Below, piece after piece: positions 26,105 to 48,011 of a DNA stretch of 64,000 bases. Location of the stretch: NCBI RefSeq assembly GCF_016612535.1, contig NZ_JAENXS010000002.1, positions 2,170,001-2,234,000 on the forward strand, read 5' to 3'. The translations under genes were made by a program, and so were the position numbers. The number at the start of each line of letters is the position of its first letter. The first letter of the stretch is position 1. This DNA is from Bradyrhizobium diazoefficiens. GTDB lineage: Bacteria > Pseudomonadota > Alphaproteobacteria > Rhizobiales > Xanthobacteraceae. The notes under the pieces were generated by a model, which saw only the letters and a list, made by a program, of their open reading frames with translations, was not told the DNA's origin and did no database searches.

Positions 26105-27301
26105 CTACTGCTTCGTCCCGGGGTTCTGTTCCATCAGCCTTGACCAGTGCGTTCCATCGAACTGCAGAAGCTGCAGCCTTTCGAATATTCGATAGTTCGC
26201 GGGCGACGTGTTCGCCGTGATACCAGGCAACAGCATCGGCACCCTTACATCGCTGAGGTTGGAAGCGATCCGAATGAGATTCTCGCGCGACAGATCGTCG
26301 CCTGCGGTCGACAGAACATGCGTGAGCAAGCCGGCAGAAACATAGGCAAGAACATTGAGATCATCGGTCGGATCGCCACCCGGGTAGTATTTCCTGATCC
26401 AGGCGAGATAGTCCTTGTATTCGGGGTCGTCCGCCCACGCCGGATCGGACGGCGTTTTCACAAATCCCGTCGAGATCAGGCCTGCGAGTTCGCCGGGACT
26501 TCCACCTGGCGAAAGCACCTTCGGCGACGAGACAGCGTAGGGCAAGAACTGGATCGGCTTCCAGCCGAGTTCGCGCACGCGCTGAATCGCTTGAGCGGTG
26601 AACTTTCCAAGGCTGAAGTTCATGAGAATGTCGGCGTTCGAGGCTCGTAGCGTTACGATCTGCGACGAAATCATCGGCTCAGTGACCTCGTACGCCGCTT
26701 GCGCAACAATCATCTTGTCGGCCACGTCGCCCAATGCGGCCTTGAACGCCGAGACATAGGTACGGCCGTAGTCGTCATTCTGGAAAAGGATCGCAATCCT
26801 GGCGTTTGGCAGCCGCTGCAAAATGTGCCTGGCGAAAACCGCGGCCTCTACCCCGTAGTTCGGCACGCCGGGTACCGTGTAGGGATAGGTCTTCGGATCG
26901 CTGAAGGTATCCGCCCCCGTGGCCAGGAACAGTTGCGGCACGCGCTTGGCGTTCAAATACCGTTGCGTAGCCCGATTTGTCGCAGTGCCAAGTGATCCGA
27001 AGATCAAGAGTGCTTCGTCCTGCTCAATGAGGCGGCGCGTCTGCTCGACCGTCTTCGGCGGAGAAAAGGCGTCGTCAAGGCTCAAGAGGCGCACCTTACG
27101 ACCGTTGATGCCCCCTCTCTCATTGATCATATCGAAATATGCTGCATGAGCTTTTCCAACCGTTCCTCCAGAACTCACGGGCCCGCTGTAGGGCATGGTC
27201 TGGCCAACGACGATCTCCCCTTTTGCGGGCTGCTCCGCAGCATGGGCACCGGTTGCCGCAAACACCCACAACAGCGCTGCGCCGACTGTTTTGCCAAACA
27301 T
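26105..27301 (-). CDS. ABC transporter substrate-binding protein, LivJ/LivK type
   Basis: A 398-residue exported protein. A signal peptide ends near GAHAAEQ. Mature part: GEIVVGQTMPYSGPVSSGGT, then INERGGINGRKV, then the Peripla_BP_6 fold with ILFQNDDYGRTYVSAFKA. GGAAGG precedes the ATG. In catabolic clusters of rhizobia such proteins bind aromatic acids as often as amino acids. No permease or ATPase gene is adjacent; the liv genes at 52.8-56.5 kb lack a binding protein, so they could share a system, which is inference. Confidence 0.9.
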   Translation of the reverse strand: MFGKTVGAALLWVFAATGAHAAEQPAKGEIVVGQTMPYSGPVSSGGTVGKAHAAYFDMINERGGINGRKVRLLSLDDAFSPPKTVEQTRRLIEQDEALLIFGSLGTATNRATQRYLNAKRVPQLFLATGADTFSDPKTYPYTVPGVPNYGVEAAVFARHILQRLPNARIAILFQNDDYGRTYVSAFKAALGDVADKMIVAQAAYEVTEPMISSQIVTLRASNADILMNFSLGKFTAQAIQRVRELGWKPIQFLPYAVSSPKVLSPGGSPGELAGLISTGFVKTPSDPAWADDPEYKDYLAWIRKYYPGGDPTDDLNVLAYVSAGLLTHVLSTAGDDLSRENLIRIASNLSDVRVPMLLPGITANTSPANYRIFERLQLLQFDGTHWSRLMEQNPGTKQ

Positions 27302-27445
27302 GAGAGACCTTCCTCATCAAACTGGAGCTATACGCCGAGAAATCGGAGAGGCTTCGTTGCACTTGCGGTGGGCTCGGACCAGCATCGCTGCAATGGTGCT
27401 TTTCGACGTCAGCGAGTGTCGCGCTGCCGTGCTGCGAACACTCGT

Positions 27446-28492
27446 CTATCGGGCACCCACCTGGCTTTGACCGAGCGCCGCCGAAGCAGTATCGGCTGGC
27501 CGCATCAGGCTCCGGAACTCATCGCCGCTCATGATTTCCCGCCCCAGACCAGCGACCATGGTGCGCACGATCTCGAAAATCTCGGCATTGCTTTGAATGA
27601 GCTCGTCGCGGTGGGGCCACTTCCAGACGGTATCCTCGGAACCCACGCGCACATGATGCCCCATCAACAATGCGAGATTGGCGAGGTAGAGGCTGGCACG
27701 ACCTCCTGCGCAGGCGACAATCGTCGCACCGGGATCGACATGGGTGATGAGTCGCGTGATCCGAAGATAACCGTCGATCATGCTCTGCGGGTCGTACATG
27801 GGGCTGCACCCCGGCAATCCCGGCACCACAAGCCAGGTGAGCGGCCCAGAAACCAACCCGGAATCGATCAGAAAACGCCGGGCATTATCAACATCCGCGT
27901 CAGTGTAGACGGCGATCTGGGGCGTGAGCCCGGCTTCGAGCACCAACCGCGTCTTCTCGAGGATCGCGTGCGGCGGCTTAACAAACAAATTGTCGCCGAG
28001 AATGATCGCCGTCGTATTCACCGGCACGGCGTCGATCAGGCCGGTCTTGAGCATCTTCCTGAGATCATCGCACTCCTCGCCGTTGACGGCGACAAGACAG
28101 GCATCGAATGCAACGCTTGGGTGTTTCGCCCGCAATTCCGCAAGGACGTCGCTGAAGCCCGATTCCGACAGGACGTTGTAGCCCCGCTGGTCGCGCGCGT
28201 GAACGTGAATGATTTGAGCCCCCCGCTCGATGCACGCCTCGGCCGAAGCAATGATTTCATTCGCCGAGTGTGCCTGGCTGGGGTTCTCGCGCTTAGTAAA
28301 GAATGCACCATTGATCGCCGTGGAGACGATCGCCTTTTGTGGCACCCGCCAGCGAGGCATCTGCTCCGCATCCGAAAACGCCGACGAAGCGACGCTCATG
28401 ATCGCCGGGTACCCGTAAGGCCGCCAGTAGGTGGAGATGTTCTCCCGCTCGACCCATTTTTCGACGACCGGCCATTTCACGGTGTTCTTCAT
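27446..28492 (-). CDS. BKACE-family (DUF849) beta-keto acid cleavage enzyme
   Basis: A 348-residue TIM-barrel zinc enzyme. The blocks INGAFFTKRENPSQAHSANE, IIHVHARDQRGYN (zinc His-x-His), ACAGGRASLYLANLALLMG and VGSEDTVW match the 3-keto-5-aminohexanoate cleavage family. BKACEs condense a beta-keto acid with acetyl-CoA, giving acetoacetate plus a CoA ester. The start at 28492 (MKNTVKWPVVEKW) is preferred; an upstream ATG at 28519 is possible. Neighbouring CoA ligase and CoA-transferase genes make a role in degrading a ring-derived keto acid plausible; the substrate is unknown. Confidence 0.85.
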   Translation of the reverse strand: MKNTVKWPVVEKWVERENISTYWRPYGYPAIMSVASSAFSDAEQMPRWRVPQKAIVSTAINGAFFTKRENPSQAHSANEIIASAEACIERGAQIIHVHARDQRGYNVLSESGFSDVLAELRAKHPSVAFDACLVAVNGEECDDLRKMLKTGLIDAVPVNTTAIILGDNLFVKPPHAILEKTRLVLEAGLTPQIAVYTDADVDNARRFLIDSGLVSGPLTWLVVPGLPGCSPMYDPQSMIDGYLRITRLITHVDPGATIVACAGGRASLYLANLALLMGHHVRVGSEDTVWKWPHRDELIQSNAEIFEIVRTMVAGLGREIMSGDEFRSLMRPADTASAALGQSQVGAR

Positions 28493-28517
28493 GGAACCTA
28501 GCCTCTTGGGATGCGGC

Positions 28518-28564
28518 ATTGACGATAGAGCGATATATCTTTCATAACTAGACCTATTGTCAAT
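28518..28564. promoter_or_regulatory. inverted repeat upstream of the BKACE gene
   Basis: ATTGACGATAG at 28518-28528 is inverted as CTATTGTCAAT at 28554-28564 (10 of 11). It lies 26-72 bp before the BKACE start, where a promoter and operator are expected. The rest of the gap up to the HxlR gene end at 28847 shows no gene. Confidence 0.4.
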
Positions 28565-28846
28565 CAGCTCATTGACGCAGCATCGTGAATTCGCACAAAT
28601 AGCCAAAAATGCCAATCTATCTCCAATTTACGATTACTTGGCTTCCTGCGACCGGATTGCGAACCTGTCTCTTTACTGAACTTATGAGAATTAAGGGATA
28701 GGCCAACGCCGGGCAGACGTGCGGCGGTCTCGGCTTCGGCAGTGCGCACAAGTGCGCGACGACACGGAAGCGCTGAACCGTTCGGGAGTGCGTTCATTAT
28801 GCAGGTATTGACTTCGACGAGCTCGACGTCGGCAGGCGGCCCGCGT

Positions 28847-29803
28847 TCAGGTCGGGCGCGTGACGGTCACATCCCAGGCCCGCAACGTCGCTCGGCACGA
28901 GGCGCAAACGAAACGAGCCTCGGTGACGGCTTCGCAGCAATGTATCATGATCTGAGGGGGTCCCTTGCTGCCCGCCAGCCATCGATCGGCCCAATCGATC
29001 AGACTATGCAGCATGGGGTAGATGTCTTCGCCGCGAGGGGTAATGCGATAAACAACGCGCCGACCGTTCGGTTCTGCTTCCACGAGATCGAGCGCAATCA
29101 ACTTCTTCAATCGAGACGAGAGGATGTTCGAGGATATGCCGAGCGTATCCTTGATGTCCGAATAGGAACTCGTTCCCTGGAACAGGCTGAACAGCACCAG
29201 ATTGCTCCAGCGATCCCCGACGATGCTGGTCGCAACGAGATCATCGGGCCGTCCGGACGAACCTTTCAAGAAGGCGCTCTCGTTCTCCCGGGAATGCCTC
29301 GGACCGGGCGGCGGGTCCATTCCGCGCTCTGGCGAGTCTATCAAGGTTACATCGCGGCGGACGACGGGCTTGTCACACTGTCGACAGATGAACTCGGCCC
29401 TGAGCGCGCTGCCGCACGGCCGATGGTACAAGGTGTCGGGCAGGAAAAGCTGCCTGTCACTCCACCGCCGGTGCCAGACCCACACCGAGACAATGAAGTT
29501 ATAGAGATCCAGGCCCTTGGGCGTCAGATGGTACTCCTGGATCAACGTTCGATGTCGGACCGCCTTGCGAAATAGAACCTGGTTGTCGGCAAGCGCGGCC
29601 AGCCTCAGCATCAGCGTCTGCCGGGGGATCTGGAGGCTATCGTGAAATTCGTGGAAGCGCCGGCGCCCCTGGAACGCCTCTTTGAGGATCAGGATTGTCC
29701 AGGCGTCGCCGACGATCTCAAGGGCCCTCACGAGCGAGCTGGCGGGAATGCCCTGGGCTGAGCTTTTCTTCCGTTTCGAGTTGGCCACAGACACCCAAGG
29801 CAA
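28847..29803 (-). CDS. tandem double-HxlR transcriptional regulator
   Basis: A 318-residue protein with two HxlR winged-helix domains in one chain: first ALEIVGDAWTILILKEAFQG (about 26-130), second ATSIVGDRWSNLVLFSLFQG (about 190-285). Each is followed by a CxxC pair (FICRQCDKPV and FVCASCRATL). HxlR proteins are normally single-domain dimers of about 110-150 residues, so this looks like a fused dimer with possible zinc knuckles. No ATG starts the frame; TTG at 29803 or GTG at 29794 or 29788 must serve. It follows the CoA-transferase gene by 19 bp and probably regulates that operon. Confidence 0.85.
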   Translation of the reverse strand: MPWVSVANSKRKKSSAQGIPASSLVRALEIVGDAWTILILKEAFQGRRRFHEFHDSLQIPRQTLMLRLAALADNQVLFRKAVRHRTLIQEYHLTPKGLDLYNFIVSVWVWHRRWSDRQLFLPDTLYHRPCGSALRAEFICRQCDKPVVRRDVTLIDSPERGMDPPPGPRHSRENESAFLKGSSGRPDDLVATSIVGDRWSNLVLFSLFQGTSSYSDIKDTLGISSNILSSRLKKLIALDLVEAEPNGRRVVYRITPRGEDIYPMLHSLIDWADRWLAGSKGPPQIMIHCCEAVTEARFVCASCRATLRAWDVTVTRPT

Positions 29804-29822
29804 CGTTCGGGAAATGAATCGG

Positions 29823-31034
29823 CTAGGTTATTCCTTTCATAAAGGCCTTTTGCGATGGCGGATCAAGCCCTAGTTCGCGGAGAATTTCCGGCGTGTGAGC
29901 ACCCAGATGCGGCGCGCTGGCGCGCACGCCTGCGGCGCTGCGGGAGAGTCGCACGGGCGGCTGAACCAGCAACGCTTGATGGACACCGCCGACCACCGGA
30001 AGGCGAGTCCATAGGCGCATCGCCTCCATGTCCGGATCCTTCAAGGCTTTGGCAGGGCTGTTCACTGGCGCGCAGGGAAGCCCAGCGGCGCGAAACTCGG
30101 ACAAGCAATGATCTGTGGTGCGGGCCGAGCAGAACGCTACCATATGAGCGTTCAGTGCGTCCGAGTTTCGTCCCCTTTGCTCGTCCGTTGCGAAGCGTTG
30201 GTCATCCAACCAATCCAGCCGGCCCACCAGCTTGGCGCAGCGGCGAAACATCGACTTGCCGATCACCTGCAACAGAACGTTGCCATCTCGGGTCTGGTAG
30301 ATGTCGGCCGGGCCCGCAAGTTGTGACCGATTGGCTGTTCCGACCCGCCCGACTCCAAGGCTGTCCTCCTCGATCAGGTTGGAAGCCATCGCGAAGACCG
30401 AAGTATGGATGAGCGAAGCATCCACAATCTGTCCTCTGCCCGTTCTGTCTCGATCGCGAAGCGCAGCCATGATCCCGAAGGCAGAAAAGGCGGCGGTCAT
30501 GTGGTCGACCCAATGGCAATAGCTCTTGCGCGGTTCACCAGCCTCGCCGCTCAAATACGCCGCTCCAGACATGGCTTGGCCAATCCCATCGAAGCCCGGC
30601 AGATCGGAAAGGCGATTGTTTCGGCCATAGGCCGTGCAGATCGAAAGAATGACGCGCGGGTTGAGCTGTGAAATGCGCTCATACTCCAGACCCATCGCCG
30701 AGAGCGTCGCGGGCGGCGCGTTCACGACTACGACGTCCGCCGTACCGAGGAGCCGATCGAGCGCGGCGCGGTTGTCGTGATCGAAAGGGTCGAGGGCAAG
30801 AGAGCGCTTGTTGCGATTGACCTGCCAGTACGCCGCACCGCCAGGCCACCCCTCGCCCATCGGCTGAACGAAGCGATCGGCATTCCCCTCCGGCTTCTCG
30901 ACCCTGATGACATCAGCTCCGAAATCGGCCAGCAACGCGGCACACAGTGGTCCCGCAATGAACTGCCCGAAATCCAGAACCCGAACTCCCCGGAGGGGTG
31001 GGTCGCTCCCCTCAGCAGATTCCGTCGAGATCAC
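29823..31034 (-). CDS. class III (CaiB/BaiF-type) CoA-transferase
   Basis: A 403-residue family III CoA-transferase: VRVLDFGQFIAGPLCAALLA, DFGADVIRVEKPEGN, NRNKRSLALD, LPGFDGIGQAMSGAAYLSG, TGRGQIVDASL. It moves CoA between acids through an aspartyl anhydride. The frame is open to 31151, but a GTG at 31034 overlapping the carotenoid oxygenase stop as GTGA gives the family N-terminus and fits the tightly coupled operon. It could activate or recycle the acid formed by the upstream oxygenase; substrate unknown. Confidence 0.9.
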   Translation of the reverse strand: MISTESAEGSDPPLRGVRVLDFGQFIAGPLCAALLADFGADVIRVEKPEGNADRFVQPMGEGWPGGAAYWQVNRNKRSLALDPFDHDNRAALDRLLGTADVVVVNAPPATLSAMGLEYERISQLNPRVILSICTAYGRNNRLSDLPGFDGIGQAMSGAAYLSGEAGEPRKSYCHWVDHMTAAFSAFGIMAALRDRDRTGRGQIVDASLIHTSVFAMASNLIEEDSLGVGRVGTANRSQLAGPADIYQTRDGNVLLQVIGKSMFRRCAKLVGRLDWLDDQRFATDEQRGRNSDALNAHMVAFCSARTTDHCLSEFRAAGLPCAPVNSPAKALKDPDMEAMRLWTRLPVVGGVHQALLVQPPVRLSRSAAGVRASAPHLGAHTPEILRELGLDPPSQKAFMKGIT

Positions 31035-32581
31035 TCGAAAATGTCCTTGCCGTCGATCCAGGTCGTATGGAAGCCGATCGAGATGCGGTGCGGGATCTTC
31101 ACCTTCGCGACCGGCCCACGGCTGATGTCGGCGGCGTCGAATACCAGACATGCCGAAGACCAGTCGTTGGTGTCCGTTACGAACGTTACCGGGTAAGCTT
31201 CGGTCTCCGCCGTCGCCGCGGTTGCGCCACGACGTGGCGCGACAGGAGCTTCGTTTCCGTAGACGCCATCACCGTAGTCGTAGCGCTGCATGGAGCCCGT
31301 CTCGAGATCGTAGCGAACCAACGCGTCGAAGGTCTGGGACTGCCCCGAGGTGTGGCCTTCGACAGGAAGCGGAATGACCTGATTGAACGAGTATCTGGAC
31401 CGCCGTCCCAGATAGTTGAAGTTCACAGTCGGGAATTCAGTATTCAAGTCATCGATAGGCCCCTCGCGAACCTCCCCTGTCTTCATGTTGAACGACCATT
31501 TGTACATCTCATGCAGCCGTCGGCGCTGCGCGAGCATCGAGGCCAACTCCCGATCCTTGGGATCACGGGCATAGCCAGGGTTCGATTGCCGGCATCCGAT
31601 CTGGTGAACCCAGTCCCCCTCTTCCCAGCAATTCACCAAATGGAGGATGTAACACGGCTCGGCTTCGAACCAGCGGATCTCGTGCGACTGCCCACGGCGC
31701 GGGATGACGCCGAAACGTGCCGGTATGTCGGCGTGGAAGCGCACCATCCGCTTCCCGTGTTTCTTCAGGACCTCGATATCGTGGAAGAACGGCAGGTCAT
31801 GCAGGATCGCATGACGCTCCGTCAGCCCGAGATCGTGAGGTGACCGCGGTCCGGGAATGTCGATTGGAACGTCGTGCACCAATTGTCCGGTCGGGCTACC
31901 CACGCCGTACCTCATGTAGGGAGCCGTGTCGGAGTAGGTGAAGAAGTACAAATGACCGTCGCTAGGATCGACCTTCGAATGCGCAGACAGCGTATGCGCC
32001 AGTGAGCCGCCGAATGTCTCCTTGCCAACCGTCTCCAACGTCGTTGGATTGATCTCGTAGGGATCGCCGGCCATGTGCCAAAGTGACAACAGCTTGCCCG
32101 CATAGAAAATCACGTCCGTGTTCGATACGTCCTTGATCGGCGAGCCCGGAAGCTTGAAATTGTAGGGACCCGCTATCCCGGGCCAGATGCTGCGCTGGGC
32201 GATATCCTCCACCACGAATGCCTCGTTGCGAATCCAGCGTTGCCGGAAGGAGGCTTTTCCGTCACGGAAGTAGATCGCGCGCAGCATCGCGTCGCCGTCG
32301 TAGTAGTGATACTTATTGACGGGAGCGAACCGCTGGGAAGGACCATTGAGCACGTACGCGCCGTAAAGGTCCTTGGGCAACTCGCCCTCGACTTCAAGCG
32401 AATCCGCATCGTATTCCCGCAGCGTCGGCGCGAAGGCGCCGTGCAGATAGGGATGATCGGCGCCCCAGATCCAGTCGGGGGCGTCCGGCGGCGGCTTGCC
32501 GTCCGCAGACAGCATGCGCACGTTGGCTTGGGTAATGAGAAGGTCCTGAACGCCTTGGGCCGCGTGAGCCTGCATATTCAT
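31031..32581 (-). CDS. carotenoid/stilbene-cleaving oxygenase (RPE65 family)
   Basis: A 516-residue non-heme iron oxygenase with a seven-bladed propeller fold. The four histidine iron ligands can be placed at SLAHTLSAHSKVD, FFHDIEV, CYILHLVNCWEE and the C-terminal SIGFHTTW; YVLNGPSQRF and YHYYDGDAMLRAIYF are family blocks. Bacterial members cleave interphenyl C=C bonds (lignostilbene to vanillin-type aldehydes, isoeugenol) or carotenoids. Neighbouring aromatic catabolic genes favour a phenylpropanoid or stilbene substrate. A good ribosome site (GGAG) precedes the ATG at 32581. Confidence 0.9.
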   Translation of the reverse strand: MNMQAHAAQGVQDLLITQANVRMLSADGKPPPDAPDWIWGADHPYLHGAFAPTLREYDADSLEVEGELPKDLYGAYVLNGPSQRFAPVNKYHYYDGDAMLRAIYFRDGKASFRQRWIRNEAFVVEDIAQRSIWPGIAGPYNFKLPGSPIKDVSNTDVIFYAGKLLSLWHMAGDPYEINPTTLETVGKETFGGSLAHTLSAHSKVDPSDGHLYFFTYSDTAPYMRYGVGSPTGQLVHDVPIDIPGPRSPHDLGLTERHAILHDLPFFHDIEVLKKHGKRMVRFHADIPARFGVIPRRGQSHEIRWFEAEPCYILHLVNCWEEGDWVHQIGCRQSNPGYARDPKDRELASMLAQRRRLHEMYKWSFNMKTGEVREGPIDDLNTEFPTVNFNYLGRRSRYSFNQVIPLPVEGHTSGQSQTFDALVRYDLETGSMQRYDYGDGVYGNEAPVAPRRGATAATAETEAYPVTFVTDTNDWSSACLVFDAADISRGPVAKVKIPHRISIGFHTTWIDGKDIFE

Positions 32582-32594
32582 GGCAATTCTCCGT

Positions 32595-34298
32595 TCATGC
32601 CGATTTCTTGGGTTCGACGTTGGTGATTGAGCGGTCCGCGATCATCCGGGCGAGCTCGCGCCTCAAAACCTTTGCCAACGCGTTGCGCGGCAACGCTTCG
32701 AGGTATTCGACGCGCTCCGGCCATTTGAACCGTGCAAGGCCTGCCTGCTCACATACTCCTGCGATCTCGGCGAGCGGGACAAGCCTTCCGGCCCTCGGAA
32801 CGACGAAAGCACACACACGCTCGCCAAGCCGCTCGTCCGGCATCGCGACGACGGCGGCCTCCCTGACGTCCGGATGCGTCGAAATCACCGCGTCCAGCTC
32901 GGCCGGCGCGATCTTCATGCCGCCGCGCACGATCAATTCCTTCGAGCGGCCGACGAAACGGAGATATCCGGCCTTGCCGTTCTCCTCGACGATCTCGAAC
33001 AGATCTCCCGTGGCGAAATAGCCGTCCGCATCAAAGCCGCGCCGATCAAGCTCGCCGCTCTGCCAATATCCGGGGAAAACGGCCGGGCCTCTTATACGCA
33101 TTTCGCCGACCTCTCCGGCCGTGCTGATGATGTTGCCGGCCTCGGAGACCAGGCGAAAGCGTCCGGCGTTTGCGGTCAGCCCCTCGGCGGTCCATGTCTC
33201 GTCGCCGTCACGCGGAAATACGCGCGCGCGGAGACAGGGATCCTGTACCGCGGCGGGATGCGAGCACAGATTTACGCCCTCGTTCGACCCGAAGATATTG
33301 ATCACAGGCACCCCGAATCGTTCTTCGAACTTTCGCACCACGGACGGGTCTGGCGGTGCGGATCCGGTGCCAACCGCACGAAGCCCGCGCAACGCGTCGG
33401 GCCGATCGCTATCGAGCAGGGACGACATCAGCGCGGGCGCAACGACCGTGTACGCTACCCGTTCGCAAGCGATCTGCTGCAGAAATACGTCGAGATTGAA
33501 AGGATGATGAAGCACCAAGCTCCCCGCGGAGCCGAGCCAGATCATCATCAGTCCGCCGATCGCAGCGGCATTGACGAACGGGAACGGCGCCAGGATCGCG
33601 TCGCCTGGGGCGACGGCAGCCAATGACGTGACGGACGTGGCGCTGGAGAGCCAGTTCTTATGAGTCTTGGGTACGCCTTTGGGCACGCCCTCGGTGCCCG
33701 AAGTCCAGCAAATGGAAAACAGCGAGTCGGCGCTCGGCCGCTCCGCGACGATGAGACCAGCTTCCCCGTCGGAGTAGCGAGACAGATCAACGATGCGATC
33801 CGGCAGATTGCTCCCAAAGCCGAACAGCTTGCCGCCGAAAGGCACGTTCTCCCTGAACTCACGCAGCAACTCGAGCCCGGCAGCCCTGACGACCGAGCAA
33901 AACCCCTTGGGTTTCAGAACCTCGACAATCTTCCGAAGCTCGCCGTGGCGATATTGGATCGGAACTGGACTGATCACGATTCCGGTCTTCGCCGCCGCCA
34001 GATAGAGCGCGACCAGTTCGTGGACGTTCGGCATCTGTACGAGGAGAATATCTCCACAGCGCAAACCTGCCGAGAGAAGCGCGATCGAGACACGATCGAC
34101 CAATCCCAAGAATTCGCCATAGGTCAGGCGCGAGGCCGCGCCGAACGCAAACGTCGACCGGTTAGGAGGATCAACGATTGCGGTCCTACCCGGAGCAGCC
34201 TCCACATTCGACGCGAACCGGTCGTAGATGGTCTGCGATCGCCACAGACCACGTTCGCGAAATTCTGCGACCAGTGCTGGCGGGAAATGACCGGTCAT
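32595..34298 (-). CDS. AMP-forming acyl/aryl-CoA ligase
   Basis: A 567-residue ANL-superfamily enzyme. P-loop ICWTSGTEGVPKGVPKTHKN, adenine motif NIFGSNEGVN, YFATGDLFEI (catalytic aspartate) and the hinge KELIVRGGMKIAPAELD are visible. The final lysine is in RNALAKVLRREL. It activates a carboxylic acid as acyl-adenylate then CoA thioester. Its ATG overlaps the NMO stop (ATGA), and it lies 13 bp before the carotenoid oxygenase. Substrate likely an aromatic or phenylpropenoic acid, from context only. Confidence 0.92.
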   Translation of the reverse strand: MTGHFPPALVAEFRERGLWRSQTIYDRFASNVEAAPGRTAIVDPPNRSTFAFGAASRLTYGEFLGLVDRVSIALLSAGLRCGDILLVQMPNVHELVALYLAAAKTGIVISPVPIQYRHGELRKIVEVLKPKGFCSVVRAAGLELLREFRENVPFGGKLFGFGSNLPDRIVDLSRYSDGEAGLIVAERPSADSLFSICWTSGTEGVPKGVPKTHKNWLSSATSVTSLAAVAPGDAILAPFPFVNAAAIGGLMMIWLGSAGSLVLHHPFNLDVFLQQIACERVAYTVVAPALMSSLLDSDRPDALRGLRAVGTGSAPPDPSVVRKFEERFGVPVINIFGSNEGVNLCSHPAAVQDPCLRARVFPRDGDETWTAEGLTANAGRFRLVSEAGNIISTAGEVGEMRIRGPAVFPGYWQSGELDRRGFDADGYFATGDLFEIVEENGKAGYLRFVGRSKELIVRGGMKIAPAELDAVISTHPDVREAAVVAMPDERLGERVCAFVVPRAGRLVPLAEIAGVCEQAGLARFKWPERVEYLEALPRNALAKVLRRELARMIADRSITNVEPKKSA

Positions 34299-35269: not shown

Positions 35270-35356
35270 TTGCCACGCGTTGACCTCGACCAATTGATTG
35301 CATAACTGAACTTCTAATGCAATAAGCTCCAGATGCATCCTGGACAGGAACATGAA

Positions 35357-41337: not shown

Positions 41338-41724
41338 CTAAGCGACCGCGGTCGCGTCGCACTGCACGAGCATGTTCGACGGCAGGTGATCGTTTTGGAA
41401 CGTATGACGCGCCGGGCGGGAAGTCGGATCCGGGAAAGCAAGCAGCCAATGCTTGTTGACTGCGGCGCGCGCTTCGGGCGCTTTAACGTATACCGTCATC
41501 TTGACGACCTGCTCCATGGTCGCGCCGGCGGCCGCTATGATCCGTGTGAGGTTGTGAAACATGAGTTCCGCCTGTTTCTCAACATCGTCCGGGATCTTGC
41601 CGGTCGCAGGATCGAGTCCGTAGATTCCCCCGGTCATCACGATATTGCCGACGCGGGAGGCAGCGGGGATTGGCTGCGCCCCGTGACTGAACCCTTCGAC
41701 CTGAATGCTTTTCCGTACGCTCAT
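41338..41724 (-). CDS. RidA (YjgF/UK114) family protein (1 of 2)
   Basis: A 128-residue trimeric enamine/imine deaminase-type protein: NIVMTGGIYGLDPATGKIPD, AGATMEQVVKMTVYVK and SRPARHTFQ (the arginine that holds the substrate carboxylate). Some members are dedicated catabolic enzymes such as 2-aminomuconate deaminase, so a pathway-specific role is possible here. Placed between the LigJ-like amidohydrolase and RraA paralogue 2 in one operon. Confidence 0.88.
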   Translation of the reverse strand: MSVRKSIQVEGFSHGAQPIPAASRVGNIVMTGGIYGLDPATGKIPDDVEKQAELMFHNLTRIIAAAGATMEQVVKMTVYVKAPEARAAVNKHWLLAFPDPTSRPARHTFQNDHLPSNMLVQCDATAVA

Positions 41725-41748: not shown

Positions 41749-42753
41749 TTAGACGTCGAGGCGCGAAAAGAACTTCCTTGCGTTGTGTTCGAACACTCCC
41801 TTTTTCTCCTCCGCACCGATGGTTTCGATCGACTCGATGACAGGCTTGAGGTCGTCGTAGGCCCTCTTGGACTGCGGATCGATCCCCCCGCCACTGCCTG
41901 GCCGTTCCGTTCCGAACATGCATCGATCCGCCCCAACGACGTCGAACAGAAGTTCGAGAGACTTTCTGTTATGGACGACCGTGTCGAACCAGAACCGCTT
42001 CAGAGAAGCATCAAAGCTCTCGGTGTCCTTCGGCAGACGACCTGCGGCGATCGCCATCTGCCTATTCGACCGCCAACGACCGACCTGATACGGCACTGAA
42101 CCGCCGCCATGGCTTACAAGCAGTTTCAGCGATGGAAACCGTTGAAACACGTCCGACCGCGTGATCGAAGTAATAGCGAGGCTCTCTTCGGTGATGAAGT
42201 GCTCGTCGTAGGTCTCACGACCGCAGCAAGCGCAACTGTGAATGTGTGCCGGGATATCGTGTCGGCAGAGAAACTCGTAGAGCGGGAACCAGTATGGATC
42301 CGCGAGAGTCGGGGATCTTCCGGTGCCTTCGGATGGGTCCGGATTCAGCAGAACGCCGACGAATCCGAGATCGTCGATGCACCGCTTGATTTCGTCGAAC
42401 ATCGCCTCGACGGGAGCTCCAACCGCCTGCGGGAGCCCCCCGACGCCACGAAATCGCTTCGGGTGCATCCTTACCGTACGGGCGATCACGTTGTTGTTGT
42501 CCTCGGCCCAGGTGACGACGTCTTCCCAGCGGTTTTCGCCGTGCACCATCATAAAAGGACGGGGCGATATGATCTGTAGATCGGTGCCGACTCCATCCAT
42601 GATCGAAACGTTCTGCGCCGCCGATTTCTCAAGATCGGCATCCGAAATCGAAGCGGGATACTTTCCGTATTGGCCGCGAGCAACGACGAGATTGCTCCTG
42701 TGGGCGTAAAGTGTCGGCGGTGCGACGAGATGTGCGTGGGCGTCGATGATCAT
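41749..42753 (-). CDS. amidohydrolase-2 family enzyme, LigJ-like oxalomesaconate hydratase candidate
   Basis: A 334-residue TIM-barrel metal enzyme: IIDAHAHLVAPPTLYAHR, the metal histidine in IPAHIHSCACC, LLVSHGGGSVPYQVGRW, and the terminal block MFGTERPGSGGGIDPQ then LKPVIESIETIGAEEKKGVF. The C-terminal block resembles 4-oxalomesaconate hydratase (LigJ) of protocatechuate/gallate meta-cleavage more than decarboxylases of the ACMSD branch. It would hydrate oxalomesaconate to the substrate of a LigK-type aldolase, and RraA-fold genes flank it. Decarboxylase activity remains an alternative. Confidence 0.82.
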   Translation of the reverse strand: MIIDAHAHLVAPPTLYAHRSNLVVARGQYGKYPASISDADLEKSAAQNVSIMDGVGTDLQIISPRPFMMVHGENRWEDVVTWAEDNNNVIARTVRMHPKRFRGVGGLPQAVGAPVEAMFDEIKRCIDDLGFVGVLLNPDPSEGTGRSPTLADPYWFPLYEFLCRHDIPAHIHSCACCGRETYDEHFITEESLAITSITRSDVFQRFPSLKLLVSHGGGSVPYQVGRWRSNRQMAIAAGRLPKDTESFDASLKRFWFDTVVHNRKSLELLFDVVGADRCMFGTERPGSGGGIDPQSKRAYDDLKPVIESIETIGAEEKKGVFEHNARKFFSRLDV

Positions 42754-42786: not shown

Positions 42787-43440
42787 CTAGAGATCGTAGA
42801 CATCGACAGTGAGAGCGCCGTCTCTTATGCGGGAAATTATGGCCGCCTCCTTTTCCTCACGTACGAGAGATGCCGGAATCGCGAATCTCGCCTGATCCGG
42901 CGTAAGCACGACGACTCCGTCGGCATCCCCGAAGACGAGATCCCCTCTGGCGATCTCGACATCGCCGATTGTTACGGGTTCACCAATCGCCCCATCGCCA
43001 TTGCGATCCTTCACGGTGCCGCGAATATTGACGCAGGCGGAGAACGTCGGCAGCCCCAACGTACGCAATGCCAGCGTGTCTCGTACGCCGCCGTTGATGA
43101 CGATGCCCGCCAACCCGCGCGTGGCCGCGGAAGTCGCCATGATCTCTCCCCAGTAGCCAAATTCGATGCCGTCACCGGCCGATACGACAAGAACGTCGCC
43201 CGGCTCCGCGACAGCAAGCGCGCGGTGGATCCACAGATTATCGCCAGCAGGCGTACGTACCGGGAATGCGGGGCCGCAGACGCGCATTTCCGGCTCGATC
43301 GGCTTTATCGCGCTCGGAAGCGCGCCCAGCCTGCCGACGCTTTCGTGAAGAGTAGCGGACGAGAGCCAAAGAGCCTTCCTTAGGAGCTGCGGGTCGATCA
43401 CACCGCTTCTCCCGCTTTCCGCGGGTTTTTGACCGGTCAT
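42787..43440 (-). CDS. RraA/LigK-family aldolase-like protein (3 of 3)
   Basis: A 217-residue paralogue, the most divergent: TLHESVGRLGALPSAIKPIE, VLVVSAGDGIEFGYWGEIMA, IVINGGVRDTLALRTLGLP and RGDLVFGDADGVVVLTP. The Arg-Asp pair is kept (VRD). The start MTGQKPAESGRSG at 43440 has GAGGGAG upstream. First gene of the leftward operon, 177 bp from the divergent dioxygenase. Its first-gene position and LigK-like GEIMA/INGGVRD pattern make it the best single candidate for the 4-carboxy-4-hydroxy-2-oxoadipate aldolase. Confidence 0.85.
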   Translation of the reverse strand: MTGQKPAESGRSGVIDPQLLRKALWLSSATLHESVGRLGALPSAIKPIEPEMRVCGPAFPVRTPAGDNLWIHRALAVAEPGDVLVVSAGDGIEFGYWGEIMATSAATRGLAGIVINGGVRDTLALRTLGLPTFSACVNIRGTVKDRNGDGAIGEPVTIGDVEIARGDLVFGDADGVVVLTPDQARFAIPASLVREEKEAAIISRIRDGALTVDVYDL

Positions 43441-43470
43441 GCAGAGGCGCTCCCTCGAATTTTTATATAT

Positions 43471-43480
43471 ACCACGTGGT
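43471..43480. promoter_or_regulatory. CCACGTGG operator 1 in divergent catabolic promoter
   Basis: Perfect palindrome ACCACGTGGT flanked symmetrically by TATATATA and CTATATA-type sequence (43465-43487). It is 31 bp before the leftward operon start. It shares its core with the site at 43571. No adjacent gene encodes an obvious cognate regulator. Confidence 0.65.
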
Positions 43481-43570
43481 CTATATAATTGTTCGCGTCG
43501 ATAGACAAGCGAGCTTTTCGGGCGTCCCAGCCATGCCGAGGATTGCCAAACGCGGCACCTCACTATATTG

Positions 43571-43580
43571 TCCACGTGGT
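43571..43580. promoter_or_regulatory. CCACGTGG operator 2 in divergent catabolic promoter
   Basis: TTGTCCACGTGGTCAA (43569-43583 region), nearly perfect dyad with the same CCACGTGG core, 38 bp before the dioxygenase start. The pair is spaced exactly 100 bp centre to centre, so DNA looping or independent control of each operon is possible. Confidence 0.65.
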
Positions 43581-43617
43581 CAATTTATAAGAAGCGATCG
43601 ATTACGAGGAGATCGAA

Positions 43618-44610
43618 ATGGCCGAGGTCGTATTTAGCTTCGCGGCGTCGCATACGCCGATGCTCACGCTCGAAGGCAAGCGCTGGACGGAACGGGCCAG
43701 AGACGACCTCAAGAACCAGAGGCTCAATCTTTCCGATGGCCGCTTCATAAGTTACGACGAGTTGGCCAGGGAGAACGGCGCGCCCTACGTCGACGTCGCT
43801 ACGGAGGAGAATTTCCTCGAGATCGAAAGGGCTTCGCAGAAGGCCCTCGATAAGATCGCCGATCGACTCGAGCAGGCCAATCCCGATGTAGTTATTATCG
43901 TGGGCGACGATCAGGCCGAGCTGTTCAGTCTCGCCAACATACCCGCCATGTCGATCTTCTACGGCGAAGAGATCCTTACCCACGAAAGGCATCTGACGAC
44001 GCAAACACCAAGCTGGGTAAGCGCGGTAGTGAAAGGGTATGCAATGGACGCCGTCCATGCCTTCCCGGGGCATCCGGAACTCGCCCTCGAATTGATACGC
44101 GGTCTAATCGACAAGGATGTCGATATCGGCGCGGCCGCCAAGGTAGATGATCCCCTCAAGGCCGGGTTCGGCCATGCTTACGGGTTCATCATTGAACGAT
44201 TGTTCAAAGGCCGCGCTATTCCCGTCGTCCCAATCCTGCTCAACACTTACTATCCGCCCAACGCTCCCACGGCGCGACGATGCTATGATGTGGGCCGAGC
44301 TTTGACGGAAACCATCGCGGCCAGCAAGAGCAATTTGCGCGTCGCGGTGGCGGCGAGCGGAGGGCTCAGTCATTTCGTGGTGGACGAGGCGCTCGATCGC
44401 AATATCCTTCAGGCGATCAAGCAAAAAGACGTCCAGACTCTAAAGGCTCTGTCCCGCAACCAACTGAACTCGGGATCGTCGGAAATTCTGAATTGGATCA
44501 TGGTCGCGGGCATGTCGGAGAAGCTCGCCAACGATTGGAGCGAGTACTATCCGGCATACCGGACGCCCGCGGGCACCGGAACGGGCATTGGATTCGCGAC
44601 CTGGTCCTAG
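43618..44610 (+). CDS. class III extradiol ring-cleavage dioxygenase (LigB/DesZ-like)
   Basis: A 330-residue iron(II) enzyme. The N-terminal AEVVFSFAASHTPMLTLEGK holds the first iron histidine (His12). VVIIVGDDQAELFSL, PGHPELALELIRGL and AASGGLSHFVVDEAL (conserved catalytic histidine) follow. The length and the block MAEVVFSFAASHTPM with RFISYDELAREN resemble single-chain gallate or 3-O-methylgallate dioxygenases rather than LigAB, and no LigA subunit gene is present. Strong ribosome site ACGAGGAG. First gene of the rightward operon. Confidence 0.88.
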   Translation: MAEVVFSFAASHTPMLTLEGKRWTERARDDLKNQRLNLSDGRFISYDELARENGAPYVDVATEENFLEIERASQKALDKIADRLEQANPDVVIIVGDDQAELFSLANIPAMSIFYGEEILTHERHLTTQTPSWVSAVVKGYAMDAVHAFPGHPELALELIRGLIDKDVDIGAAAKVDDPLKAGFGHAYGFIIERLFKGRAIPVVPILLNTYYPPNAPTARRCYDVGRALTETIAASKSNLRVAVAASGGLSHFVVDEALDRNILQAIKQKDVQTLKALSRNQLNSGSSEILNWIMVAGMSEKLANDWSEYYPAYRTPAGTGTGIGFATWS

Positions 44611-44703: not shown

Positions 44704-45114
44704 ATGCACGAGCATCAAAGCGGCTCCGGGCGACGCTCGGTTTACGTCGACGGGCTCAATTTCAAGGGCGTGCCCATTCCGTTCGGCAGCAAGGCCGGCA
44801 GGTTCTTCGTCTCGAGCGGTATCTCGGGCACCGATCCGGCGACACACGAACTCGTCGATGGAGACGCCGGTCAGATAGAGCAGATGTTCGAGAATATGCG
44901 GCTGGGCGTGGAAACTGCCGGCGGTTCCATCCAAGGCATATTGAAATGCACGTTTCACGTACGTGACGAGTCCGTGCGCACGCACATCCACGCTCAATGG
45001 CTAAAAATGTTTCCCGATCCTGCCAGTCGGCCGGCCCGGCACACCATGATCTACGGCTTTCCGAAGGACGTGGCCGCGATGGTCGAATTCATGGCTGTTC
45101 TTCCCGCCGACTGA
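44704..45114 (+). CDS. RidA (YjgF/UK114) family protein (2 of 2)
   Basis: A 136-residue protein: RFFVSSGISGTDPATHELVD, GGSIQGILKCTFHVRD, SRPARHTMIYGFP with the conserved arginine, MVEFMAVLP. It is only moderately similar to the other RidA at 41.3 kb, so the two probably have distinct partners. Located between the ring-cleavage dioxygenase and the Rieske oxygenase. Confidence 0.87.
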   Translation: MHEHQSGSGRRSVYVDGLNFKGVPIPFGSKAGRFFVSSGISGTDPATHELVDGDAGQIEQMFENMRLGVETAGGSIQGILKCTFHVRDESVRTHIHAQWLKMFPDPASRPARHTMIYGFPKDVAAMVEFMAVLPAD

Positions 45115-45133
45115 GGGCTGAGAGGGTCTCAAC

Positions 45134-46441
45134 ATGCAAGAGTATCAATCGACGGAAGCCGCGATCGGTGCCTCCCGATGGGTTAACGAGGACCCAGCAA
45201 AGGGAAAATTCGACGTCCGCCGCACCGCCTTTACAGCGCAACTCGTCGAGGTCGAGATGCGCAAGGTCTTCGAGCGTTCCTGGCTGTACGTCGGCCACGA
45301 GTCCGAGATCCCCAACAAGAACGACTTCATTGCCCGTAGGGTGGTAAATAGGCCCGTAATAATGACCCGCGCTGCAAGCGGGGAGATAAAGGTTCTGTTG
45401 AACACCTGCTCACACCGCGGCGCCGAGGTGTGCCGCGAGGCCAAAGGAAACGCCCGGCTGTTCATCTGTCCCTATCATGCCTGGACTTTCCAGAACGATG
45501 GTGTTCTGCGCGGAGCATCAATTCCCGAAGGTGCATCCCCTGGCTTCGACAGATCAACTATGGGGCTCAAATCGCCGGCCCGCATGGAAGCCTATCGAGG
45601 TTTGGTATTCATCAGCTTCGATAGTGGCGTGCCCGACCTCCCGACCTACTTCGGTAATGCAAAGCAGTACCTCGACATGATCCTGGATCAGGGCGAGGTC
45701 GGGACCGAAATTGTCCAAGGCTCGCACGAATATTCCATCGATGCCAACTGGAAGCTCCTGGTCGAGAACAGCATCGACGGGTACCACGCGGCATCTACAC
45801 ACGACCGATATTTCTCATATCTGAGGCGCAACGACGGCGCGATCGATTTCGACGGTTCGCGCATTTCGCGCGGTCTGGACCTTGGCGACGGCCATGCTTT
45901 GATGACGGGACAGGCCCGCTTCGCGCGGCCCGTCGCACAATGGTCCCCCATGATGGGAGAGCCGGCGAAGAGTCAGGTCGAAGCGGTCTATGCCCGGCTG
46001 GTTGAAAGGTTCGGTTCCGAACGAGCCAACTTGATCGCCAAGCACACCCGCAACCTCTTCATCTTTCCGAATCTTATCATAAACGACGTCCAGGCAGTAA
46101 CCGTCCGCACATTCTATCCGGTGCGCCACGACCGGATGAGCGTCAACTCCTGGGCGCTCGGGCCGAAGAACGAGCCAGCCGAACTGAGAAAATTGAGACT
46201 CGACAACTATCTCACGTTCCTCGGGCCGGGCGGCTTCGCCACGCCCGATGATGTCGAGCTCCTCGAAAGCTGCCAGCGTGGTTTCGCCAATCGAGAAGCC
46301 GAATGGTCCGACATCTCTCGGGGCATGGGAAATCCGGCCCAAGATGCTTTGGGTGAGGAGCAGATGCGCGCGTTCTGGCGGCGGTGGGCCCAACTGATGG
46401 ATGACGGCGGTGTGGACGTGACTAGTGGAGGACAAGTATGA
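45134..46441 (+). CDS. Rieske aromatic ring-hydroxylating oxygenase, alpha subunit
   Basis: A 435-residue catalytic subunit. The Rieske [2Fe-2S] site is TCSHRGAEVC...ICPYHAWTF (Cys92, His94, Cys112, His115). The mononuclear iron site is LVENSIDGYHAASTHDRY (His218, His223, bridging Asp215). It binds the beta subunit encoded next through a 4-bp overlap. Possible reactions are dihydroxylation, decarboxylating hydroxylation or O-demethylation of an aromatic acid; the substrate cannot be read from sequence. GAGGG is present before the ATG at 45134. Confidence 0.95.
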   Translation: MQEYQSTEAAIGASRWVNEDPAKGKFDVRRTAFTAQLVEVEMRKVFERSWLYVGHESEIPNKNDFIARRVVNRPVIMTRAASGEIKVLLNTCSHRGAEVCREAKGNARLFICPYHAWTFQNDGVLRGASIPEGASPGFDRSTMGLKSPARMEAYRGLVFISFDSGVPDLPTYFGNAKQYLDMILDQGEVGTEIVQGSHEYSIDANWKLLVENSIDGYHAASTHDRYFSYLRRNDGAIDFDGSRISRGLDLGDGHALMTGQARFARPVAQWSPMMGEPAKSQVEAVYARLVERFGSERANLIAKHTRNLFIFPNLIINDVQAVTVRTFYPVRHDRMSVNSWALGPKNEPAELRKLRLDNYLTFLGPGGFATPDDVELLESCQRGFANREAEWSDISRGMGNPAQDALGEEQMRAFWRRWAQLMDDGGVDVTSGGQV

Positions 46442-46923
46442 CCTTCAGACCACTACGCCTCGAGGTCGAGGATTTCCTGTATCGTGAGGCAGCCCTTCTC
46501 GATTCATGGCGCCTTGACGAGTGGCTGTCCCTCTTTTCGGAACGCGGCACGTACGAAATACCGGCGCCCGACGATCTGAACGGAAATTCGGATAGTTCGC
46601 TCTTCGTTGTTGCAGACGACTTTGCCAGGCTGAAAGACCGTGTCGTGCAGCTTCTTGGCGATAAGGCATGGGCGGAACGCCCGCGCTCGCGTACGCGACG
46701 CATCTTGAGCAATGTGATAGCGGAGGAGCTTCAGACTGGGGAGGTCGACGTCTGGACGAATTTCGTCGTCTATAGAACTAGGCTCGACAAGATCAGTGTC
46801 TTCTTCGGACGTCATCAACATATTTTGGCCCGCCACGAAAGTAGCTTCAAAATTCAAAAAAGGCGCTCGGTGCTGGATTTGGAATCGCTGCAGTCCGTGG
46901 GCAAAGTCAGCTTCATTCTCTAA
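46438..46923 (+). CDS. Rieske oxygenase beta subunit
   Basis: A 161-residue SnoaL/NTF2-like small subunit: EVEDFLYREAALLDSWRLDE, WLSLFSERGTYEIPAP, RTRRILSNVIAEE, and a C-terminal VLDLESLQSVGKVSFIL. Supports the alpha3beta3 hexamer. Its ATG overlaps the alpha stop. Confidence 0.93.
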   Translation: MTFRPLRLEVEDFLYREAALLDSWRLDEWLSLFSERGTYEIPAPDDLNGNSDSSLFVVADDFARLKDRVVQLLGDKAWAERPRSRTRRILSNVIAEELQTGEVDVWTNFVVYRTRLDKISVFFGRHQHILARHESSFKIQKRRSVLDLESLQSVGKVSFIL

Positions 46924-46931
46924 GGCGGCCC

Positions 46932-48011
46932 ATGACAGTTCAGAACAGGCAGTGGATTTTGGCACGACGACCCAGGGGTGAGGTACGAGTCGACGACTTT
47001 GAACTGATCTCCAAACCCCTGACGACGTTGCAGAGCGGACAGGTTTTGGTCCGCGTACAAGCCTTCGCAAACGCACCCGCGATGCGCGAGTGGATGGACG
47101 ACGCCTGGGAAGGCACAGCCCCGACGATGCCGTTATGCGAACCAGTTCAGGGACGCGGGGTCGGCGTTGTGACGGCGTCCGAACATCCCAAATTTCGCCC
47201 GGGCGACCAGATCACGGGACTTTTGGGCTGGCAGGAATATGCGATCGTCAATCCGGACGACCGGTGGGGACCGGAGGGACGTTCCTGGGCCGGCTCGCAG
47301 AAATTCTGGCAGTTGCAAACAAACTCGGATCCGGCCCGCGTTCTCGGCGTTCTCGGCGGAAATGGACTGGCCGCCTACTTGGGGATGGTCGACGTCATCA
47401 AACCAAAGAGTGGGGAGACCATCGTGGTGTCGGCGGCCGCTGGCGCCACCGGCTCCTTGGCCGGGCAGATCGCGAAGTTGCACGGCGCTCGCATCGTCGG
47501 GATAGCGAGCGGTAAGGAGAAAACCAGCCTGCTGACCGAACGGCTCCGGTTCGATGTTGGTGTCGACCGAAAATCACCCGATTTCGAAGATGAACTGCGC
47601 CGCGCCTGCCCGGCCGGCATAAGCGCTTACTTCGACAACACGCAAGGAGAGGTCTTGGACGCCTGCCTGCCGCTCCTTGTGAAGCGCGGGCGCGTCGCCA
47701 TGTGCGGCGGAGTGGGGGTTCTCAACGCCGCTGCCGGACGCGGCAACTACAACCTCATGCACGTGATCTGGAAACGAGCTCGACTCGAAGGGTTTAGTAT
47801 CTTCGAGTACTCGGACGAGCAGCGCAAGGAAGCGGTCGCAAATCTCGCCTCGTGGATCGAGGAGGGTTCGCTCGCGATCCTTGAGGACAACCTGTACGGA
47901 TTCGAAATTCTGCCGACTGCGTTTATCGATCTGCTGGCGGGTCGCAGTGTCGGACGCCAACTGGTGTGGATAGAGCGCAGAGACCCGGCCTCGACCGTTG
48001 GGAAGCTCTAG
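46932..48011 (+). CDS. zinc-independent MDR NADP-dependent oxidoreductase (CurA-like)
   Basis: A 359-residue medium-chain reductase: NRQWILARRPRGEVRVDDF, VQGRGVGVVTASEHPKF, GGNGLAAYLGMVDVIKPKSG, the NADP motif VSAAAGATGSLAGQIAKLHG and RGRVAMCGGVGVLNA. It belongs to the leukotriene B4 dehydrogenase/curcumin reductase branch, which reduces alpha,beta-unsaturated ketones or aldehydes. It may reduce a double bond in an oxygenated side chain or ring intermediate. Last gene of the rightward operon, 8 bp after the beta subunit. Confidence 0.9.
   Translation: MTVQNRQWILARRPRGEVRVDDFELISKPLTTLQSGQVLVRVQAFANAPAMREWMDDAWEGTAPTMPLCEPVQGRGVGVVTASEHPKFRPGDQITGLLGWQEYAIVNPDDRWGPEGRSWAGSQKFWQLQTNSDPARVLGVLGGNGLAAYLGMVDVIKPKSGETIVVSAAAGATGSLAGQIAKLHGARIVGIASGKEKTSLLTERLRFDVGVDRKSPDFEDELRRACPAGISAYFDNTQGEVLDACLPLLVKRGRVAMCGGVGVLNAAAGRGNYNLMHVIWKRARLEGFSIFEYSDEQRKEAVANLASWIEEGSLAILEDNLYGFEILPTAFIDLLAGRSVGRQLVWIERRDPASTVGKL

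Follow-up and report, generated by a model that had tools for sequence, protein, structure and literature searches.

What kind of aromatic ring cleavage is encoded at positions 26105-48011 of the 64,000-nt stretch of Bradyrhizobium diazoefficiens DNA analysed here (the window)? An earlier note on this region had proposed an undescribed aromatic degradation system working by gallate-type cleavage and oxalomesaconate. Profile scans covering 20 proteins of the block recovered every gene named in that note, with the families it had given: a substrate-binding protein (SBP), a BKACE protein, a CoA-transferase III, an RPE65/carotenoid oxygenase, an AMP ligase, an MFS transporter, a ferredoxin reductase, three RraA proteins, two Rid proteins, one PF04909 amidohydrolase, one LigB-family dioxygenase, Rieske alpha and beta subunits and an MDR reductase. 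The proposal of a ring-cleavage system for which no described match was found stands; the gallate/oxalomesaconate logic found no support. The catabolic core of the block is real and conserved, has apparently not been described before, and is judged to be of the LigZ/LigY kind. The reading we favour, with a probability of roughly 0.4, is that of a mosaic catabolic locus in which a LigZ/LigY-like route lies behind interchangeable oxygenases and would end with RraA-type cleavage to pyruvate.

Linkage of the core genes

The genes are arranged in two divergent operons separated by a common promoter region of 177 bp (43441-43617). On the minus strand the gene order is RraA3, amidohydrolase, RidA1, RraA2, RraA1 and ferredoxin reductase, and on the plus strand it is dioxygenase, RidA2, Rieske alpha, Rieske beta and MDR reductase. 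Gaps between genes within the operons were about -3 to 34 bp, except for the 94 bp between the dioxygenase and RidA2 genes. The dioxygenase, the amidohydrolase, RidA and the three RraA-fold aldolases form a six-gene core which, together with a TetR regulator, makes up the widespread module A:

37795..38574, minus strand: TetR regulator, likely controller of module A (PF00440; relatives in nine other dioxygenase loci, by clusters of open reading frames, ORFs)
40001..40657, minus strand: RraA1, D-X20-R-D form (PF03737)
40659..41315, minus strand: RraA2, G-X20-R-D-X2-E form (PF03737; start refined)
41338..41724, minus strand: RidA1, active-site Arg kept, Asp at the Glu120 place (PF01042, residue columns)
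41749..42753, minus strand: LigY-type amidohydrolase, putative C-C hydrolase (LigY score, tree, diagnostic columns)
42787..43440, minus strand: RraA3 (115.8 bits to 3noj, tree; start refined)
43618..44610, plus strand: class III (LigB-family) extradiol dioxygenase, 330 aa (PF02900, 73.8 bits)

An alignment of 21 dioxygenases was searched against a collection holding one genome per species, and the best 80 of 181 relatives were taken by the dioxygenase alone, ignoring their neighbours. Partner genes were counted from tblastn hits at E ≤ 1e-10 that spanned half of the query. The amidohydrolase was present in 47 of these 80 loci, Rid in 45, and at least one, two or three RraA genes in 44, 38 and 30, respectively; the amidohydrolase, Rid and two RraA genes occurred together in 29, and any partner in 59. 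When only the 52 loci flanked on each side by 8 kb or more were considered, the figures were 38 (amidohydrolase), 36 (Rid), 36, 31 and 26 (at least one, two and three RraA), 26 (amidohydrolase, Rid and at least two RraA) and 45 (any core partner); all these counts include non-independent events, because near-duplicates (L003/L004; L017/L021/L025/L030) and several metagenome bins are present. The complete core was seen in Pseudomonadota, Actinomycetota and Chloroflexota, the last represented by one metagenome bin (L061) without full flanks. The amidohydrolase and three RraA genes were also present in an Acidobacteria locus (L082) and in Polymorphobacter (L086), where Rid was not found. The genome of the strain itself showed nine RraA-family matches in 8 Mb, three of them within 3.5 kb here; at that density some 0.02 would be expected in 21 kb. 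Since RraA genes are sparse genome-wide and yet three lie here, and since the core recurs in other phyla, the clustering is not due to chance.

The earlier note had suggested examining co-occurrence of the gene families across Bradyrhizobium genomes. The dioxygenase was found in 15 of 265 genomes at E ≤ 1e-80 (in G191 the match covers residues 102-330 only). The genes downstream of it (module B, below) occurred in one further genome, G041, and there without the core. Relatives of the dioxygenase were also present in 29 plasmid records at E ≤ 1e-20; gene content was examined in four.

Core enzymes and the chemistry they suggest

The amidohydrolase had been called LigJ-like. In phmmer comparisons it scored 265.6 bits with LigY and 197.3 with the best solved 4-oxalomesaconate hydratase, which we take to be LigJ. 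A tree of 65 rows placed it in a 47-row clade (88/82) and LigJ in a six-row clade (100/100, branch 1.81), while LigY grouped with one Polymorphobacter and one Paraburkholderia copy; its position outside LigJ is firm, but a sister relationship to LigY is not, because the deep order is poorly supported and some long branches meet. L070, one of the 26 complete loci, was left out of this tree. Columns counted as diagnostic when fixation within the window clade reached 95% or more, with the sets drawn from the tree after seven outlying rows had been dropped. With five LigY-set and six LigJ-set rows, 12 columns were LigY-type (shared by every row of the first set and by none of the second) and one, W82, was LigJ-type; the ratio was 13:1 with three rows of LigY's own clade and 16:3 with the two solved enzymes only. 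Tree, score and columns thus agree in removing the enzyme from LigJ. His6, His8, His172 and Glu283, presumably the metal-site residues, are kept in the window clade and in the LigY and LigJ sets. Among the 38 amidohydrolases of full-flank loci, that of L056 fell in the LigJ clade and those of L033, L038 and L055 were outliers. L046 and L056 have the dioxygenase and Rid genes beside a LigJ-clade amidohydrolase, an oxalomesaconate-type context for the same dioxygenase family.

Members of the dioxygenase family also adjoin LigY-like genes in L138, L139 and L086. The amidohydrolases nearest LigY in a class scan were those of L138 (53% identical) and L139 (50%), each with a dioxygenase of this family as its neighbour and with Rieske genes. 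Rid and RraA genes are present as well in L138, and neither kind occurs in the stretch of L139 examined. On the Polymorphobacter plasmid (L086), an amidohydrolase sister to LigY of Sphingobium SYK-6 (97/89) accompanies the dioxygenase and three RraA genes. Several Rieske alpha genes were seen in L138 and L139, and positions 9825-10562 of L138 hold a class II aldolase/adducin gene; these two loci possibly encode another dimer pathway.

The label DesZ-like for the dioxygenase likewise found no support: it scored 43.6 bits on the gallate-dioxygenase model PRK13367 (cut-off 412), the DesZ sequence itself being outside the comparison, and 25.6 and 25.4 bits with solved gallate dioxygenases. By profile it scored 52.9 bits with LigB and 39.7 with a solved gallate dioxygenase, and it is 330 aa long against 418 aa in the solved gallate enzyme. 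The earlier note had staked its gallate-type reading on the placement of the amidohydrolase and the dioxygenase, and on that test the reading fails, with the former off the LigJ clade and the latter far under the gallate model. The iron ligands of LigB, as in class III extradiol dioxygenases, are His-His-Glu. Of this site H12 and E289 are kept, and Gln99 occupies the place of LigB His61, which we take to be a metal ligand; the gap-free alignment stretch VIIVGDDQAELFSLANIP / VILVYNDHASAFDMNIIP leaves the LigB alignment unambiguous here. Among 93 relatives that place held Gln in 83, His in six, Glu in two and another residue or a gap in two, while H12, H186, H252 and E289 were kept in 90, 91, 91 and 91. 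This points to a family of extradiol dioxygenases in which the metal-binding His mostly gives way to Gln. The close relatives in L018, L023 and L026 (53-54% identity) have His, and L018 contains the complete core, which speaks against a strict Gln rule; the other three His-bearing rows are distant (28-34% identity). L018, L023 and L026 provide a natural His-for-Gln comparison to the window enzyme.

For the class II pyruvate aldolases with an RraA fold, we take the motif strings to be D-X20-R-D and G-X20-R-D-X2-E. Window RraA1 has the D form, RraA2 the G...E form, and RraA3 a variant with E at place 102. In a tree of 132 rows (128 sequences labelled by their best match to the three window proteins, those three, and 3noj), RraA2 rows formed one clade (0.996 local support), RraA3 grouped with 3noj (0.999), a solved aldolase for 4-hydroxy-4-methyl-2-oxoglutarate (HMG) and 4-carboxy-4-hydroxy-2-oxoadipate (CHA), and RraA1 adjoined RraA2, with two of 52 rows on the other side. 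R123 was kept in every row of the three groups and D124 in 48/51 RraA1, 44/44 RraA2 and 33/33 RraA3 rows; place 102 held D in 46/51 RraA1, G in 44/44 RraA2 and E in 29/33 RraA3 rows. RraA-fold class II pyruvate aldolases carry one of two motifs, according to PMC5065237. That RraA2 might be inactive for want of Asp102 was considered and dropped: 44 of 45 rows, including the window protein, show G-X20-R-D-X2-E, and one has D at the last place. On the LigK/PcmE model TIGR02798 the best score, 144.9 bits for RraA3, lay under the cut-off of 304.5, indicating the same wider group and not the LigK-type aldolase implied before. In the Rid rows of the loci, the Arg105 place was R in 52 of 53, and the Glu120 place was E in 31 and D in 18; RidA1 also has D.

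From these families, their orthology and their conserved linkage, the following reactions are predicted. A first oxygenase would make a catechol-type ring with a carbon substituent; here this would be the Rieske alpha/beta enzyme with its reductase, and in relatives an alpha-only Rieske enzyme, P450s or flavin monooxygenases. The LigB-family dioxygenase would open the ring, and the LigY-type amidohydrolase would, as in LigY, cut a C-C bond of the ring-fission product by hydrolysis. The products would be a carboxylic acid and, as the second fragment, a hydroxydienoate of the 4-carboxy-2-hydroxypenta-2,4-dienoate (CHPD) type. For this enzyme the score, the tree and the 12:1 columns favour LigY. 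At the weakest step, Rid might tautomerise or hydrate the enol or dienoate, and the RraA-type class II aldolases would split the product, yielding pyruvate. According to PMC12673573, hydration of CHPD should give HMG, which an RraA-type aldolase cuts, and the SYK-6 enzyme for the hydration is listed as not identified; the core offers, in its Rid protein, a candidate for such a step. The fuller proposal of a core in three phyla, for which no published function was found, working behind interchangeable oxygenases, with a mostly His-Gln-Glu iron site in the dioxygenase and a Rid protein as the missing hydratase or tautomerase of LigY-type pathways, is rather unlikely to hold as a whole.

Several points weigh against the LigZ/LigY-like route. 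The window amidohydrolase is 42% identical to LigY and lies in a different subclade, and in three of the 26 complete loci (L033, L038, L055) the amidohydrolase falls outside both the LigY and the window clades. The dioxygenase was likened to LigZ by family and gene context, not by the LigZ sequence. Seven of the 52 full-flank loci are without any core partner, and three aldolases are more than such a route needs. A profile search of the whole genome for the Rieske family and, for the plant type, a motif scan confined to the window turned up no ferredoxin gene within the window. Finally, nitrogen chemistry is hinted at because Arg-bearing Rid proteins are predicted imine hydrolases.

This last point leads to a different route, in which the substrate ring carries nitrogen (an aminophenol acid or an N-heterocycle), the fission product is an enamine or imine, Rid releases ammonia, and the amidohydrolase and RraA aldolases finish the breakdown. 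PMC4433059 describes Arg-bearing Rid proteins as predicted to hydrolyse imines and 2-aminomuconate deaminase as a Rid protein, and the frequency of the Rid gene (45/80 loci; 36/52 with full flanks), its nearly constant Arg (52/53 rows) and the second-best model of the Rieske alpha subunit (anthranilate dioxygenase, 270.9 bits, under cut-off) fit this route. However, Rid also occurs in the LigY-like locus L138, where known LigY chemistry needs no nitrogen step, and it was not found in L082 and L086, which have the amidohydrolase and three RraA genes; the Glu120 place is D in 18/53 rows and in RidA1, and no aldehyde dehydrogenase of the AmnC kind was present among the 20 proteins scanned. On balance a nitrogen-bearing ring seems unlikely.

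A 2-pyrone route as in lumichrome breakdown, in which the fission product closes to a carboxypyrone that the amidohydrolase opens before a hydratase and an RraA-type aldolase act, is improbable. The order of reaction types matches (Rieske, extradiol, pyrone hydrolase, hydratase, aldolase; PMC12746152, in the part available), but the LumY hydratase is annotated there as a cupin, not a Rid protein, no xanthine-oxidase or thiamine pyrophosphate (TPP) enzyme was among the 20 proteins, and the likeness was drawn from descriptions of the Lum enzymes, not from the LumW, LumX and LumE sequences. The route of the earlier note, from a gallate-type ring through oxalomesaconate, LigJ-type hydration and LigK-type aldol cleavage, agrees with the grouping of RraA3 nearest the HMG/CHA aldolase, with the W82 column (three such columns when the two solved enzymes only are used) and with the LigJ-clade enzymes beside the dioxygenase in L046 and L056; set against the tree, score and 12 columns that place the window amidohydrolase with LigY, and the scores on the gallate-dioxygenase and LigK models, both far under cut-off, it is very improbable.

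Exchangeable partners, operator-like sites and neighbours

The remaining genes of the block are as follows:

26105..35269, minus strand: left block (SBP, BKACE, HxlR, CoA-transferase, carotenoid oxygenase, CoA ligase, nitronate monooxygenase)
28847-29803, minus strand: HxlR regulator
34295-35269, minus strand: nitronate-monooxygenase gene
35333-36103, plus strand: alpha/beta-hydrolase ORF, on the other strand
36169..37527, minus strand: MFS uptake transporter, HpaX-like (PF07690; HpaX model 293.9 bits, under cut-off 615.4; start refined)
38731..39972, minus strand: NAD(P)H-ferredoxin reductase, AndAa/HcaD type (NF041682, 320.2 bits, under cut-off 650)
44704..45114, plus strand: RidA2, module B (PF01042; nearest among the rows compared, the L122 copy)
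45134..46441, plus strand: Rieske oxygenase alpha, benzoate/anthranilate type, module B (TIGR03229, 285.5 bits, under cut-off 781)
46438..46923, plus strand: Rieske oxygenase beta, module B (PF00866)
46932..48011, plus strand: MDR oxidoreductase, curcumin-reductase-like, module B (NF058644, 273.7 bits, under cut-off 440)

The nitronate monooxygenase, HxlR, TetR and alpha/beta-hydrolase genes were absent from the earlier note. That note had treated all the genes as one system. This overstates what is linked, since neither the left block nor the Rieske genes accompany the dioxygenase/amidohydrolase/Rid/RraA core constantly. The window Rieske alpha, Rieske beta, MDR and carotenoid oxygenase genes each had relatives in 0/80 dioxygenase loci, so that the Rieske genes were dropped as part of the core, and the ferredoxin reductase had a relative in one. 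Module B (RidA2, Rieske alpha/beta and MDR) recurred in G041, where these four genes lie together and precede genes for a SnoaL/MDR protein and an FAH hydrolase; the alpha subunit there is 68% identical, and in the remainder of the 40 matching genomes at most 53%. At E ≤ 1e-100 the carotenoid oxygenase was found in one of the 265 Bradyrhizobium genomes, its own, and the next best match in 347 genomes of the order was 41% identical. Its best solved match was a carotenoid 9,10-dioxygenase (246.8 bits; lignostilbene isozyme I, 174.7), and the protein (31031-32581) matches three NCBIfam models, each under cut-off. The left block is probably separate from module A. Because module B, the left block and the core do not co-occur in relatives, the window joins modules that are separate elsewhere. 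The ferredoxin reductase probably serves the Rieske oxygenase; alpha/beta (45134-46923) and this AndAa-type reductase stand without a ferredoxin gene found in the window.

Other oxygenases accompany the core elsewhere. By ORF clusters, a phthalate-dioxygenase-type Rieske alpha was present in 40 of the 80 loci (one representative had as second-best solved match the putative phthalate 4,5-dioxygenase alpha 7fhr), a PDR-type reductase in 20, a Gfo/Idh dehydrogenase in 10 and P450s in eight. On Bradyrhizobium plasmids from peanut and Stylosanthes, the core is accompanied by two P450s and a Liv ABC system, with no match to RraA3, and a Rhodococcus koreensis plasmid has FAD-dependent monooxygenase genes. 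Profile and PDB searches of the partner oxygenases indicated no substrate. A six-gene core kept across distant bacteria with differing first oxygenases suggests a common central intermediate off the usual maps.

Operator-like sites (unstranded) lie at the following places:

43463..43488: palindrome before RraA3
43568..43588: second site, before the dioxygenase
37592..37617: third palindrome, 65 bp before the MFS start; loose pattern only

Two copies thus fall in the 177 bp between the operons. A strict and a loose pattern were derived by visual inspection of this region and its relatives. The strict pattern, which does not include the MFS site, gave three matches at two places (one on both strands) against 0.03 expected; the loose one gave six at four places against 1.46 expected, a number equalled by 1 of 100 shuffles, and one of the places (2356) is apparently unrelated. 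Given the origin of the patterns, only the MFS and P450 sites are independent. Each of the seven Bradyrhizobium dioxygenase loci scanned shows a pair of sites ahead of the dioxygenase with no more than one mismatch, a recurrence to be expected if most of these loci served as source of the pattern. In L083, L084 and L006, the three loci with gene starts compared, a further one-mismatch site begins 29-52 bp before a P450 gene; L084 and L006 share identical sites, and L083 has three additional two-mismatch matches elsewhere, near the shuffled level (mean 1.55, 20 shuffles). Six further loci were scanned: two matches each turned up in L011, L014 and L016, one with two mismatches in L122, and none in L008 and L051. 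No match with up to two mismatches was found inside or before the left block. Judged from the sites, the TetR protein may bind there, and at the divergent operons and the MFS gene it would induce uptake and breakdown jointly. The sites would offer a direct route to the inducers and hence to the substrate.

A C5 cytosine methylase and a phage-integrase-family gene adjoin the block at 20210-25324, and G+C content is about 0.63-0.67 at 1-16 kb and 0.56-0.62 across 18-52 kb; drop and neighbours together suggest a mobile island. No tRNA was detected in the window. The plus operon is followed by two chemoreceptor-like (MCP) genes (48230-52615; the first by Pfam, the second from its sequence), perhaps for chemotaxis to the substrate, and a Bradyrhizobium guangdongense plasmid encodes a 73% identical MCP some 17 kb away from the core.

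Known pathways compared

No description of this gene set was found in the open-licence PMC literature, judged mostly from listings. The isoflavone ifc cluster (PMC11069340) was rejected: in the part available it starts with the group A flavin monooxygenase IfcA, and none was among the 20 proteins. The 4-hydroxypyridine kpi genes (PMC7356986) were rejected on the available description of KpiC as an amidohydrolase-1 family dioxygenase, and the accessible part of a Rhodococcus R85 paper (PMC10986565) names no function for its cluster.

Lumichrome (riboflavin) catabolism by the Lum genes of Nocardioides simplex resembles the locus, as far as its available description goes, in a Rieske alpha/beta enzyme with separate electron carriers and in the logic of extradiol enzyme, hydrolase and aldolase. 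It differs in the cupin hydratase LumY, the xanthine oxidase LumJ and TPP enzymes, and in a ferredoxin encoded with the oxygenase; Rid is not mentioned there. Neither the LumY nor the LumJ family was among the 20 proteins scanned.

The 2-aminophenol meta pathway (AmnBA, AmnE) likewise joins a LigB-family dioxygenase, as we take AmnB/AmnA to be, to a Rid-family deaminase; the window Rid proteins belong to AmnE's family (PF01042), a likeness at family level drawn without the AmnE sequence. The window has a LigY-type hydrolase and three RraA proteins, not the dehydrogenase and decarboxylase steps, and no aldehyde dehydrogenase was found among the 20 proteins for the 2-aminomuconate-semialdehyde step. 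Gallate/protocatechuate 4,5-cleavage (DesB, DesZ, LigJ, LigK) also combines a LigB-family dioxygenase, a PF04909 enzyme and an RraA-type aldolase, unlike the window in that the amidohydrolase here is outside the LigJ clade and the dioxygenase, with Gln99, does not follow the gallate model.

The central six genes look closer to a lignin-dimer pathway than to the gallate one. The 5,5'-dehydrodivanillate (DDVA) pathway of Sphingobium SYK-6 (LigX, LigZ, LigY, HMG aldolase) uses a Rieske enzyme, a LigB-family dioxygenase (as we presume LigZ to be), a LigY-type amidohydrolase and an RraA-type aldolase. It differs in that LigXa is an alpha-only O-demethylase, whereas the window has a benzoate-type alpha/beta pair, and in that the locus keeps three RraA proteins and Rid and has no second PF04909 protein of the decarboxylase kind in the block. 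In common with it, the locus has a LigY-type amidohydrolase, in a clade of its own and not with LigY itself, and RraA-type HMG aldolase candidates in three PF03737 proteins with their catalytic residues kept; in L138 and L086, the dioxygenase and RraA genes adjoin LigY-like enzymes.

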